A DNA stretch of 34,745 nucleotides from a virus: the IMG/VR virus record IMGVR_UViG_3300045588_000108, positions 1-34,745 of that record. One strand, written 5' to 3'. Shown here one piece after another: positions 242 through 2,696 of this stretch. The translations under genes were made by a program, and so were the position numbers. How positions within the stretch are numbered: position 1 is the first letter of the stretch; every line of letters starts with the position of its first letter. The notes under the pieces are model-generated. The model was not told the DNA's origin, made no database searches, and worked only from the letters and a program-made list of their open reading frames with translations.

Positions 242-910
242 TTATGTACTCTTGCTACCATTACGCTCAAGCATCAACAAATCAGGTTTAAATATATCCT
301 TGCCGTCCGTGTTAGGCTCAAACGTGCTGTATTCCTTTTGCTGTGGGTTCTTGATGATGATACCCGCGTGTATGTCACGAATAGCCTTTTCTAGCAACCG
401 TAAGCCCATTGGTTGTAATTCGTGTTCCCACAATAACTTTGCTGCCTTACGTGGCTCCATTCCGTACATTTTCGGGTCAATGAAACATATATCCTGGTAC
501 GCTATGTCGCCACGATCAATCCCGGAGTTAAGCCAGAACACCGTGCCGCCGGTTATGGCGTCACGCATACGAACCGCCCACTCAATGGAAGAGCGGCCAC
601 GATGCCGGGGCAACAAACTTGGATGATAGCCTATCCAACCAATATTAGCCTTATAACGCGTCTTTGTGCCAATATAATCAAACGAATGCGCAGTTATACC
701 CAAATCAATATTATCGGGCAACGTGTCCTCCTTTAATGTGCCACCCGGCACAACTGGAATATCAAACAGCTGTGCCATTTTCATCATGTGCCTATCGCCA
801 AGCGGAGTGCAAACGCCCACAATTTCAACAAACTCCAAACTATTGCATAGCCGGAACACCTCTTGGCCAAAATACTTTGTGCCACTTATAAAAACTCTTA
901 ATTTTTTCAT
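242..910 (-). CDS. Formyltransferase-fold protein
   Basis: This 222-aa protein has the fold of methionyl-tRNA/GAR formyltransferases, enzymes that move a formyl group from a folate cofactor to an amine. The core motif is HPSLLPRHRG at residues 96-105, with the following SGIDRGDIAYQ (129-139). By comparison with E. coli Fmt the catalytic His (H96) and Asp (D132) are present, but the usual catalytic Asn two residues before the His is Gly (G94). The protein lacks the C-terminal tRNA-binding domain of Fmt, so initiator tRNA is an unlikely substrate. Its start overlaps the end of the GNAT reading frame by four bases, implying translational coupling. A role in making or modifying a base or nucleotide together with the ABC/GNAT protein is inferred from context only. 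Confidence 0.8.
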   Translation of the reverse strand: MKKLRVFISGTKYFGQEVFRLCNSLEFVEIVGVCTPLGDRHMMKMAQLFDIPVVPGGTLKEDTLPDNIDLGITAHSFDYIGTKTRYKANIGWIGYHPSLLPRHRGRSSIEWAVRMRDAITGGTVFWLNSGIDRGDIAYQDICFIDPKMYGMEPRKAAKLLWEHELQPMGLRLLEKAIRDIHAGIIIKNPQQKEYSTFEPNTDGKDIFKPDLLMLERNGSKST

Positions 911-1359
911 TTTCCTAAATATTTAAAACTTTGTACGGCTCGAAAGTGGCCACCATAGCCACAACCGGTTATAGATCCTTTTTTGCCTGTTTTCGTGATA
1001 CTGGCGTTACTCCTTGACTTATTCGCACCGTAAAGAATAGCATTAGTTTGCTTCCAAACGTCAGCATTTCGCAAATAACCGCATAACTGTGGGTGCGAAG
1101 TATGAAAGAATGTATGATACTTTCTTTGACAGCGGCCGTTACCTTCGAGGTGATATTGCATAACCTCATTTAAAAATGCAGTTCCAACACCGGCACCTTG
1201 CCACTCCGGCATAACAACCAAGCGCGTGGCTCGATATGCATTAGCAGTAAACATTGGACAAACTGCAACGTGAGCCACAAGTTCACCATCTACAACGCCA
1301 ACAAAATACTCCGCTGCCGGTGGATGTGGCAAGTCTAAATAATAATACTCTTTAAACAA
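907..1359 (-). CDS. GNAT acetyltransferase half of split ABC-GNAT protein
   Basis: This is a GNAT-family acyltransferase domain. RLVVMPEWQGAGVGTAF (residues 46-62) carries the Q-x-x-G-x-G acyl-CoA pyrophosphate loop, and the C-terminus (GGHFRAVQSF) resembles proteins of COG2401, ABC ATPases fused to an acetyltransferase. The only start is TTG at 1359. The frame is open without a start back to a TGA at 1453-1455 and encodes matching family sequence (YWKLFKEYYYL) upstream of the TTG. It is therefore almost certainly the C-terminal half of the protein begun at 2030, joined by a -1 shift at the A10 tract 1425-1434; the fusion would be 374 aa. Phage Mu Mom, a DNA adenine-modifying enzyme, has been described as GNAT-like, so DNA-base modification is possible but unproven. 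Confidence 0.82.
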   Translation of the reverse strand: MFKEYYYLDLPHPPAAEYFVGVVDGELVAHVAVCPMFTANAYRATRLVVMPEWQGAGVGTAFLNEVMQYHLEGNGRCQRKYHTFFHTSHPQLCGYLRNADVWKQTNAILYGANKSRSNASITKTGKKGSITGCGYGGHFRAVQSFKYLGK

Positions 1360-2030
1360 CTTCCAGTAAGTTCCGTTGACCTTCCAAACTTCAAGTTTGA
1401 TGTCTGGCCGTTTCCCGATTTCAATTTTTTTTTTAATACTTTGGTATTTACATCATATACCCAGTCCGGTTGCAACCACTCAATAATATCATAGTGGCAC
1501 GATAACAAAACCACTTTCTTTCCTTTATTCCTTCGCCAGTTCTTAGCGAAAGCCAACGCCCCAATTTTCGCAATCTGCCTATCCACTACGCTTGTGAATT
1601 CATCAACAACAGCCTCGTTTGGCGCTTCGGTAACTAACCGCGCCAATCCCGCTCTAAATTGTTGGCCGTTCGACAATGCGTTAAATGGCCGCAACCAACT
1701 AGGCACGTCACCAAGACCCACGGCGGCCAATGCTCCGGTGGCCGTGTTGAAATCGCCATCCGGTAAAATGCAGTCAATAATAGGCTTGGAGCAATCCCAA
1801 CCCGAATACAAATCGTGAATTTTATTCTCTCCAAAAAACTGTTTTCCTATCGAGGTCTTACCGGAACCGGACGCACCAACAATCAAACCAATGCCCCAAT
1901 CCAAATCATCAATATCAATATTGGCCTCAGTCTTGAAGCTTGAGCCGTCCTCGGCATTAAACAATGATTTTACTCTTTGCGCACGATAACTTTCAAAGTT
2001 TCGTGTGCTGTTTTCTACTACTATTTTCAC
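1335..2030 (-). CDS. ABC-type ATPase half of split ABC-GNAT protein
   Basis: This is a soluble ABC ATPase with Walker A GASGSGKTS (52-60), signature LSNGQ (119-123), Walker B AVVDEF with catalytic Glu144, D-loop SVVD and switch His179. There are no membrane segments, so it is not a transporter. The start is GTG at 2030, overlapping the stop of the 42-aa gene as GTGA. After residue 202 the reading frame runs through A10 into about 29 residues that look like out-of-frame noise. The -1 frame continues instead as a GNAT domain, reconstituting a COG2401-type ABC-acetyltransferase. ATP hydrolysis probably gates or powers loading of the DNA or nucleotide substrate for the acyltransferase (inference). 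Confidence 0.85.
   Translation of the reverse strand: MKIVVENSTRNFESYRAQRVKSLFNAEDGSSFKTEANIDIDDLDWGIGLIVGASGSGKTSIGKQFFGENKIHDLYSGWDCSKPIIDCILPDGDFNTATGALAAVGLGDVPSWLRPFNALSNGQQFRAGLARLVTEAPNEAVVDEFTSVVDRQIAKIGALAFAKNWRRNKGKKVVLLSCHYDIIEWLQPDWVYDVNTKVLKKKLKSGNGQTSNLKFGRSTELTGSCLKSIII
1425..1434 (-). other. A10 slippery tract joining ABC and GNAT frames
   Basis: On the coding strand the ATPase frame reads ttA AAA AAA AAA ttg, an in-phase A-AAA-AAA slippery heptamer. A -1 shift (or one extra A) gives ...KKK-IEIGKRPDIKLEVW and then the GNAT domain. The shift must lie between 1452 and 1335, where both frames are open, and this is the only obvious slippery site there. Ribosomal frameshifting, transcript slippage, a true mutation and an under-called homopolymer would look the same here. 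Confidence 0.65.
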
Positions 2031-2155
2031 GTTGTTACTACTTTTAGTTTCATTCCTTTTTTTTGGAGCTCCTCAAAGACTTTCTTTTGTTCCTCCTCGT
2101 TTTCACAAATAACAATAACCCCGTACTGCTGTTTGTATAAAAATTCTTTTGCCAT
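2027..2155 (-). CDS. 42-aa protein at head of modification operon
   Basis: This gene encodes MAKEFLYKQQYGVIVICENE and then a charged helical segment ending KLKVVTT. It starts at ATG 2155 and its TGA overlaps the GTG start of the ABC ATPase, so the two are translationally coupled. The alternation of a short beta strand (YGVIVIC) with an acidic/basic helix (EEEQKKVFEELQKKG) predicts a small alpha/beta protein. I do not recognise the family; a partner or regulator of the ABC-GNAT protein is plausible from the tight coupling. Confidence 0.7.
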   Translation of the reverse strand: MAKEFLYKQQYGVIVICENEEEQKKVFEELQKKGMKLKVVTT

Positions 2156-2178
2156 ATTTATAAATTAAGTTACATTTG
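2149..2178 (+). promoter_or_regulatory. Consensus promoter for a small RNA
   Basis: TTG (2149-2151), a 19-base spacer and TACATTTG (2171-2178) exactly match the Bacteroidota promoter pattern on the plus strand. The predicted start (about 2182-2185) coincides with the base of the long hairpin at 2181-2276. The promoter overlaps the ATG of the 42-aa gene on the other strand. Confidence 0.68.
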
Positions 2179-2181
2179 TCG

Positions 2182-2284
2182 TCTCACCCCAATACACAGC
2201 AAAGCCCAAGAACTAGAGAAGACATAGATATGTCCTCCGTAGCTCTTGGGCTCGTTGTTTAAAATTGGGGTGAGACTCTTTTTT
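2182..2284 (+). ncRNA. Rod-shaped small RNA with own promoter and terminator
   Basis: Three nested stems form one long rod: a perfect 13-bp stem (2181-2193 with 2264-2276), an 11-bp stem with one A-C mismatch (2204-2214 with 2241-2251), and a 9-bp apical stem with one mismatch (2218-2226 with 2229-2237). Interior loops lie between them. Directly after the basal stem comes T6 (2279-2284), a terminator tail. A consensus plus-strand promoter starts transcription at the base of the rod. No plus-strand gene lies nearby, so the product would be a free RNA of about 100 nt, complementary to the leader of the minus-strand modification operon. The minus strand has no T-run after the stem, so a minus-strand terminator is less likely. 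Confidence 0.6.
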
Positions 2285-2289
2285 AAAGC

Positions 2290-2318
2290 GGAGGACTATT
2301 TTTTACTTCCCGTCCTCC
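2290..2318. repeat. GGAGGAC/GTCCTCC hairpin beside the small RNA
   Basis: GGAGGAC at 2290-2296 pairs with GTCCTCC at 2312-2318. The same GTCCTCC occurs in the apical stem of the neighbouring rod (2232-2238), so the pairing could switch between partners in a transcript spanning both. It lies just beyond the stop of the gene at 2325 on the minus strand. Confidence 0.45.
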
Positions 2319-2324
2319 TGAGAA

Positions 2325-2696
2325 CTACGCTAAACTATCAATGCTTTTCAAACAATGATTTGGATCTATTTTATCCAGGATAAAAGCAACCGCTTTGCCT
2401 GTTCGTGTTAGCGTGCCATCACGCTGATTTTTACCCAATACGCTTGAAATAGTTTCTTTCCTATTCCCGAATTCAACACCTCCTTTCTGCTTTAAAATCA
2501 GGTTAAACAAATCTTTACACACCACGTTACCGGATGCGTCTATACTGGTGGCAATGCTCAAAAATTGCTGATCTAATCGCTTAAAAGAAAAGCTCCAACG
2601 GCGTTTGTATAAGTTGACAAAAAACGTCAAAAGCAACCCCAACGGGAAAAGAATAGCCGAAAGAATCAAGGCTACAATTGCTAAGGCCGTACCCAT
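2325..2696 (-). CDS. Small membrane-anchored protein
   Basis: This 123-aa protein has one strong N-terminal hydrophobic segment (residues 4-27, ALAIVALILSAILFPLGLLL), followed by basic residues (YKRRWSF) that favour an N-out, C-in topology. The soluble tail has no motif I recognise. It is the last gene of the minus-strand late operon; its ATG overlaps the stop of the upstream gene by one base (TAATG). Its place after the tail fibres, with a membrane segment, would fit a lysis- or adsorption-related role, but nothing proves this. Confidence 0.7.
   Translation of the reverse strand: MGTALAIVALILSAILFPLGLLLTFFVNLYKRRWSFSFKRLDQQFLSIATSIDASGNVVCKDLFNLILKQKGGVEFGNRKETISSVLGKNQRDGTLTRTGKAVAFILDKIDPNHCLKSIDSLA

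Follow-up and report, generated by a model that had tools for sequence, protein, structure and literature searches.

Opposite the start of a presumably late operon at the right end of a Mu-like phage genome, the plus strand carries a promoter followed by a rod-like inverted repeat, and the question is whether this locus encodes a small RNA and what such an RNA would do. The window, i.e., the whole stretch of DNA that was analysed (34,745 nt), is an IMG/VR virus record (IMGVR_UViG_3300045588_000108) with the gene content of a Mu-like phage: a transposase and a MuB-like ATPase (phrog_310, phrog_296), as well as tail sheath, terminase, portal and head proteins are encoded. According to an earlier study (PMC7761591), transposable phages like that of the window are known in Flavobacterium, and a DNA-modification gene, likened there to mom, is usually found among their last genes. 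At the minus-strand right end of the window, tail-fibre genes are followed by two small genes and then by the following block:

2027–2155, minus strand: 42-aa ORF, the opening gene of the opposed operon (start codon 2153–2155, inside the promoter region of the RNA)
1335–2030, minus strand: ABC-type ATPase of the modification block
907–1359, minus strand: GNAT acetyltransferase-like protein
242–910, minus strand: formyltransferase-like protein

The 42-aa ORF has no Pfam match, overlaps the start of the ATPase gene and is shorter than the 50-aa threshold of the ORF list; in many relatives, it is kept 5′ of the ATPase. Judging from the place of the ABC/GNAT/formyltransferase block and from the enzymes that substitute for it elsewhere, this block of the window probably modifies DNA. 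No protein gene follows the rod closely on the plus strand, as had been noted in the first-pass annotation, which described a stand-alone RNA gene antisense to the operon leader.

Relatives and family status

Searching with the ATPase yielded 80 viral loci and 52 in genomes, a portion of which was inspected by eye; many of the inspected loci have TAnnTTTG and then a rod in the same position, with stem sequences that differ yet pair. IMG/VR was also scanned with a motif made of the apical hairpin and the downstream repeat, with neither the promoter nor any gene included in it, and 97 loci were obtained, two of them by chance (L208, L187). L208 (before parsing), L187 and L164 (a near-duplicate of L163) were left out of the counts, as were L165 and L144 in some tests, and 12 Bacteroidales pattern loci (L235–L246) lie outside the analysis. 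The sole viral-contig match to the stem motif TANNTTTGNNNGTCTCACCCCAA (L085) has no rod and was judged to be a chance match.

A covariance model built on 20 sequences was searched in 88 sources chosen as known carriers and, separately, in 96 sources. It recovered all 88 known carriers with E-values below 1e-6 and, beyond the seed, reached L101 (6e-7), hankyphage p00 (L247, 6e-5) and L037 (9e-4), while five loci (L050, L054, L091, L053 and L126) were missed at an E-value of 0.001. Among 299 genomes of one family, seven carriers were found by the model, including the query genome. In the alignment of the 88 sequences, which was fitted to P1 and P2 and not to P3 and P4, 93.3% of the cells of the 35 proposed pairs are standard, as compared with 70.0% in shuffled and 35.7–48.7% in slid alignments. 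Double-change cells number 632 against 195.8 in the shuffles, and none of the 500 shuffles was as high.

At the gathering score, no Rfam 15 family matched this RNA, neither in the window nor in the related loci scanned (16 and 18); the best match in the window region (E-value, 0.03) was to a plant microRNA model and lay far below the cut-off of that model. The 6S covariance model had no match in the window either; 6S RNA is about 180 nt in size, and the predicted phage RNA about 120 nt. In blastn searches of named phages, the only match to the window locus was to the 123-aa gene next to it, in Flavobacterium phages; a Flavobacteriia RNA hit only short Listeria stretches, and the Bacteroidales version found the hankyphages. 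No description of the small RNA was found in the main-text passages of the literature searched, most subscription journals aside (PMC12135933, PMC7761591, PMC9723704, PMC7366714, PMC10994844, PMC10367356, PMC8040213). Both the promoter and the rod are genuine features, and the RNA family of which they are part has no counterpart in Rfam.

Promoter, fold and 3′ end of the predicted RNA

The elements of the predicted RNA and its surroundings are as follows:

2149–2178, plus strand: Bacteroidota-type promoter (TTG 2149–2151, N19, TACATTTG 2171–2178)
2181–2193, plus strand: 5′ strand of the closing stem P1 (13 bp), pairs with 2264–2276
2203–2215, plus strand: 5′ strand of P2 of the rod, pairs with 2240–2252
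2217–2223, plus strand: AGAAGAC, conserved, pairs weakly with element A in the apical hairpin (on the plus strand with two A-C mismatches, which are G-U on the minus strand)
2232–2238, plus strand: element A, GTCCTCC, 5′ half of the long-range helix P4
2240–2252, plus strand: 3′ strand of P2, pairs with 2203–2215
2258–2263, plus strand: 5′ strand of P3, TTTAAA, directly 5′ of the 3′ strand of P1
2264–2276, plus strand: 3′ strand of P1, pairs with 2181–2193
2282–2287, plus strand: 3′ strand of P3, including most of the T6 run of the first-pass annotation
2290–2296, plus strand: element B, GGAGGAC, 3′ half of P4 (the flanking GC at 2288–2289 pairs too, with one G-U)
2299–2304, plus strand: U-run 3′ of element B, proposed 3′ end of the RNA
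2304–2327, plus strand: hairpin C, with the loop CCTCC (GGAGG on the minus strand) complementary to element B

The consensus promoter reported from the letters alone is present in all its parts. TAnnTTTG is the −7 box of Flavobacterium sigma-A and occupies −12 to −5 (PMC9723704), which places the predicted start of the RNA near 2183. The box is kept in nearly all relatives, and its distance to P1 is fixed at about four bases; two bases of the box are free. Upstream TTG is commonest 18–20 nt before TAnnTTTG, with spacings of 18, 19 and 20 nt in 11, 17 and 13 relatives, respectively. Between the start codon of the operon and the −7 box, 32 of the 96 loci (e.g., L213, L229) have a repeated GATTGATGATT motif; this motif, which the window lacks, might serve as an operator or as part of a leader.

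The plus strand of the 136-nt stretch has a predicted folding energy of −53.2 kcal/mol (z-score, −8.0; none of 200 shuffles was as low), and the minus strand is even more stable (−61.0 kcal/mol; z-score, −9.2). Three nested stems of 13, 11 and 9 bp had been proposed. The 13-bp closing stem stands, whereas the inner stems of the plus strand measure 5, 9, 3, 2 and 5 bp. The suggestion that covariance of the stems be sought in related phages proved fruitful, since all eight aligned pairs of P1 and all 11 of P2, i.e., all 19, have changes on both sides among the 88 carriers.

A plain three-stem rod is not supported; P3 and P4 add pseudoknot pairings across the relatives. P3 consists of A/U strands that flank the 3′ strand of P1 on either side; because it encloses one strand of P1, the two helices together form a pseudoknot. 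The pairing score of P3 strands with their own partners is 5.61, as compared with 4.88 (SD, 0.08; maximum, 5.09) over 300 swaps of partners; in these swap tests of P3 and P4, relatedness was controlled by the removal of identical pairs only. Several Bacteroidales versions (e.g., L037, L051, L054, L112) have a clearer hairpin at the position of P3, as judged by eye. P4 joins the apical GUCCUCC with GGAGGAC about 50 nt downstream. The P4 core is invariant by construction of the search, and AGAAGAC, also part of the search motif, is likewise conserved by construction in the motif-scan loci. The flanks of P4 lie outside the motif, and 57 of their 69 positions pair over 23 distinct combinations (shuffle mean, 38.4; maximum, 49).

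These pairings also bear on the 3′ end. A T6 run straight after the rod had been taken for the terminator; it exists (2279–2284, 2 nt past the stem), but it is not the conserved terminator, and in most relatives its place is taken by a strand of P3. The region directly 3′ of P1 is U-rich in only 42 of the 96 parsed relatives, and that 3′ of the downstream GGAGGAC in 89 of 96, so that a simple intrinsic terminator, with a stem and a U-run directly behind it, does not describe the locus. Since P4 precedes the conserved U-run, the plus-strand RNA is predicted to be about 120 nt long, rather than about 100 nt as initially estimated. The rod was also considered as a bidirectional terminator and rejected, as the minus strand has no U-run after the rod, and the plus-strand one is not conserved directly after P1. 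In L064/L155 (IMGVR_UViG_3300026299_000059), element B and its U-run are duplicated in tandem.

Hairpin C is conserved past the proposed 3′ end of the RNA. CCTCC occurs within 45 nt of element B in 71 of 94 loci, as compared with 28 of 561 control windows, and the stem of the hairpin covaries. The stop of the late gene upstream overlaps the hairpin, which has CCTCC in common with element A. Hairpin C may have its role in a transcript that reads through the proposed 3′ end or in the minus-strand mRNA; as a terminator partner it was rejected, because only eight of 94 loci are U-rich after it. The three pairings exclude one another, and A/B and C are conserved jointly, which would suit a plus-strand attenuator. 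In it, A would pair with AGAAGAC or B, and B with A or C, and the RNA would either end at the U-run or be extended into the late genes to give a longer antisense transcript. Such a switch is nevertheless distinctly improbable, given that C lies past the U-run and would be powerless until made, and that U-rich sequence after it is so infrequent.

Working strand and exchange of RNA types

The non-standard pairs of P4 indicate which strand works. Over the distinct combinations, the P4 flanks contain 14 G-U and no A-C pairs on the plus strand, where shuffles expect 15.5 and 7.5, respectively. As G-U on the plus strand is A-C on the minus strand, P4 is selected on the plus strand. The same asymmetry is seen in the P4 core (GU 2, UG 2 in the alignment of 88) and, by eye, in several Bacteroidales versions. 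Releasing element A and forming P4 yields a net −10.2 kcal/mol on the plus strand and −2.6 kcal/mol on the minus strand, loop costs ignored; the plus strand is better in 92 of 92 loci, which share one motif and are not independent.

P1 and P2 behave differently. In the raw parse, 118 of their cells are A-C and 30 are G-U; the corresponding counts are 26 against 15 distinct contexts after removal of the bases upstream of the start and beside element A, and 31 against 18 distinct contexts in the model alignment. This pattern shows no clear strand preference and goes against a simple plus-only reading. The lean to A-C, which is G-U on the minus strand, the more stable fold of that strand and the presence of hairpin C in the minus-strand leader would all fit a view that assigns the function to the copy carried by the late mRNA, as a structured leader or processing site for translation or stability, with the plus-strand promoter being secondary. 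This view is quite unlikely to be correct, as it leaves unexplained the G-U bias of the P4 flanks, the fixed distance from P1 of a box with two free bases, and a U-run after element B that has meaning only on the plus strand. The strand bias of P4, together with TAnnTTTG about four bases from P1 and the upstream TTG, argues that the plus-strand RNA is very probably real; the minus-strand copy may matter as well. The stand-alone plus-strand RNA gene of the first-pass annotation is strongly supported by the comparison of promoter, covarying helices, P4 flanks and U-run.

The RNA body may differ between otherwise similar loci. The window and L004/L234 (one contig) are 95–96% identical in the left and 93–94% in the right flank, while their helices are only 57% identical, as compared with a mean of 71% for random pairs; in the other pairs with both flanks alike, the RNA body is 78 to 100% identical. 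Exchange of RNA bodies between like flanks is clear in one case and otherwise amounts to a tendency rather than a rule. Together with the swapping of the adjoining enzyme, this exchange could point to a feature at the level of DNA (an inverted repeat, a boundary for swapping modification genes or a protein-binding site) devoid of any RNA function. We consider that highly improbable in view of the promoter, the covarying pseudoknot helices and the G-U/A-C asymmetry of P4, all of which are RNA-level signs.

It is also conceivable, though unlikely, that the RNA is a self-specific lock: the RNA of each phage would, like an incompatibility RNA, recognise no late transcript other than that of the same phage, and would work with any DNA-modification enzyme behind it, with helix types swapped wholesale and the promoter, A, B and C fixed. 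IS10 RNA-OUT, plasmid CopA and RNA I, and the immunity RNAs of phages P1 and P4 are antisense RNAs with specificity groups and simple stem-loops. The predicted RNA resembles them as a small folded RNA with its own promoter opposite a leader, and possibly in being self-specific; it differs by two pseudoknots and a constant A/B core, the comparison of sequences being made via Rfam only. Helix identities of RNA pairs from the same host genome were 0.85, 0.70, 0.73 and 0.98, against a random mean of 0.71, and these pairs lend no support to an avoidance of equal types or to self-specificity.

Opposed genes and proposed role

The position of the RNA opposite a modification-operon leader, as proposed in the first-pass annotation, is not peculiar to the window but recurs widely. 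In 90 of the 97 scan loci, phmmer assigns the first gene on the minus strand to one of six representatives: D12 adenine methylase (35), thymidylate-synthase-like protein (22), the 42-aa ORF of the ABC module (19) and, less frequently, Mom (6), C5 methylase (6) and ParB-methylase (2). These six types are mutually unrelated, and all come from phage DNA-modification blocks; Pfam analysis of single representatives gave MethyltransfD12, Thymidylat_synt, Mom, DNA_methylase and N6_N4_Mtase. Without a match to the six types are L144, L152, L212, L216 and the two chance loci; in L181, a C5 methylase was seen by eye slightly further along. The other flank of the RNA is occupied by lysis or tail genes (named by eye). 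The same kinds of neighbours are present in 10 of 10 parsed bacterial-genome loci found by the model (10 of 14 were parsed; L252, L258, L260 and L261 were left out). In L253 and L259, truncated or fused thymidylate-synthase-like and D12 genes follow the RNA, which suggests decaying prophages. The ATPase loci L011, L012 and L014 have no RNA just upstream, and their contigs carry the RNA before a C5 methylase instead (L232, L177 and L165).

The start codon of the operon is mostly 8–35 nt from the −7 box of the RNA. The search for an operon promoter, in which only the housekeeping motif was used, revealed no strict match within the RNA or in the next 60 nt of the parsed loci, one match apiece in the two 100-nt stretches beyond, and two in the following 340 nt. 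Since no housekeeping-type promoter was found nearby, the operon mRNA is probably a product of late transcription running across the RNA gene.

Based on these comparisons, the RNA may be a cis-antisense regulator of the late modification operon, acting in the manner of DonS RNAs; with the fold, 3′ end and late override proposed here, we regard this reading as an even call. The plus-strand RNA (predicted 2183 to about 2304) would start at the housekeeping-type promoter opposite the operon leader, whose first start codon overlaps the promoter region of the RNA. It would fold into the closing stem P1, the rod P2, the A/U helix P3 trapping the 3′ strand of P1, and the long-range P4 joining the apical strand to the 3′ end; P4 and the U-run would end transcription. 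During lysogeny or in the early phase of infection, the modification enzymes would be silenced because the RNA is transcribed and pairs with the leader, and strong late transcription would override this silencing. Cis-antisense control is the simplest reading because the constant partner is the start of the opposed operon, the start codon is in or near the promoter, and no housekeeping promoter is nearby. Against it, a plain antisense RNA would not call for two conserved pseudoknots, the surplus of A-C over G-U in P1 and P2 does not favour the plus strand, and hairpin C is kept past the proposed 3′ end.

The elaborate conserved fold, and an A/B core that stays constant in Flavobacteriia while the adjoining enzyme changes, would be easier to understand if the RNA acted in trans, on host mRNAs, the ribosome or a defence system, and were merely housed in the modification block as an anti-defence island. 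This is doubtful, however, given the fixed opposed orientation and the closeness of the modification start codon; moreover, GGAGGAC has just two other copies in the window, where 1.4 are expected in all.

For the cis-antisense reading, DonS RNAs offer a precedent within the phylum: in Bacteroides polysaccharide loci these RNAs of 78–128 nt lie divergently opposite the operon start and are described as lowering operon expression (PMC7366714). As with DonS, the present RNA is short and lies opposite and close to an operon start in Bacteroidota, in the 90 of 97 loci given above. The partners of DonS are host susC homologues, whereas here they are methylases, Mom, thymidylate-synthase-like proteins and the 42-aa ORF with its ABC module. 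The RNA is thus proposed to act like DonS without being classed as DonS, as its partners are not susC homologues. In phage Mu, the Com protein and a stem in the mom mRNA control mom. Both cases concern a transposable phage whose right end carries a DNA-modification gene expressed late and, on the present proposal, under tight control that includes RNA-level steps; the difference is that a separate antisense RNA gene is proposed here, and that it accompanies Mom and other enzymes.

In hankyphage p00, the RNA lies at positions 40,532–40,662 of the record, which does not annotate it. There, too, it has the opposed orientation close to a modification block, and next come a small gene, a thymidylate synthase gene and one for an N6 methylase. 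A small gene is also present between the RNA and a 41-aa ORF or thymidylate synthase in L037, L038 and other Bacteroidales carriers; the one tested, from L037, matches the Mor activator family weakly, with a score below the cut-off. RT-3 or RT-17 RNAs (Rfam RF03068, RF03020) are found in the same Bacteroidales phages (L037, L038, L104, L101 and L247), but at other positions and with no overlap with this RNA; in hankyphage p00, RT-3 lies near the annotated diversity-generating reverse transcriptase. As hankyphage is a phage of common gut Bacteroides, and stranded RNA-seq data of Bacteroides thetaiotaomicron jmh43 carrying it are public (ArrayExpress E-MTAB-14274, as stated in PMC12135933), the proposed reading can be tested there.

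The recurrence of the RNA gene in many Mu-like Bacteroidota viruses, opposed before whichever modification enzyme is present, suggests that it times DNA modification. If this is true, one RNA device in the transposable phages of Bacteroidota would gate unrelated DNA-modification enzymes, and the control element would be more constant than the enzymes it controls. It would then be an RNA answer to the old question posed by Mu, namely how DNA modification is kept silent until late.
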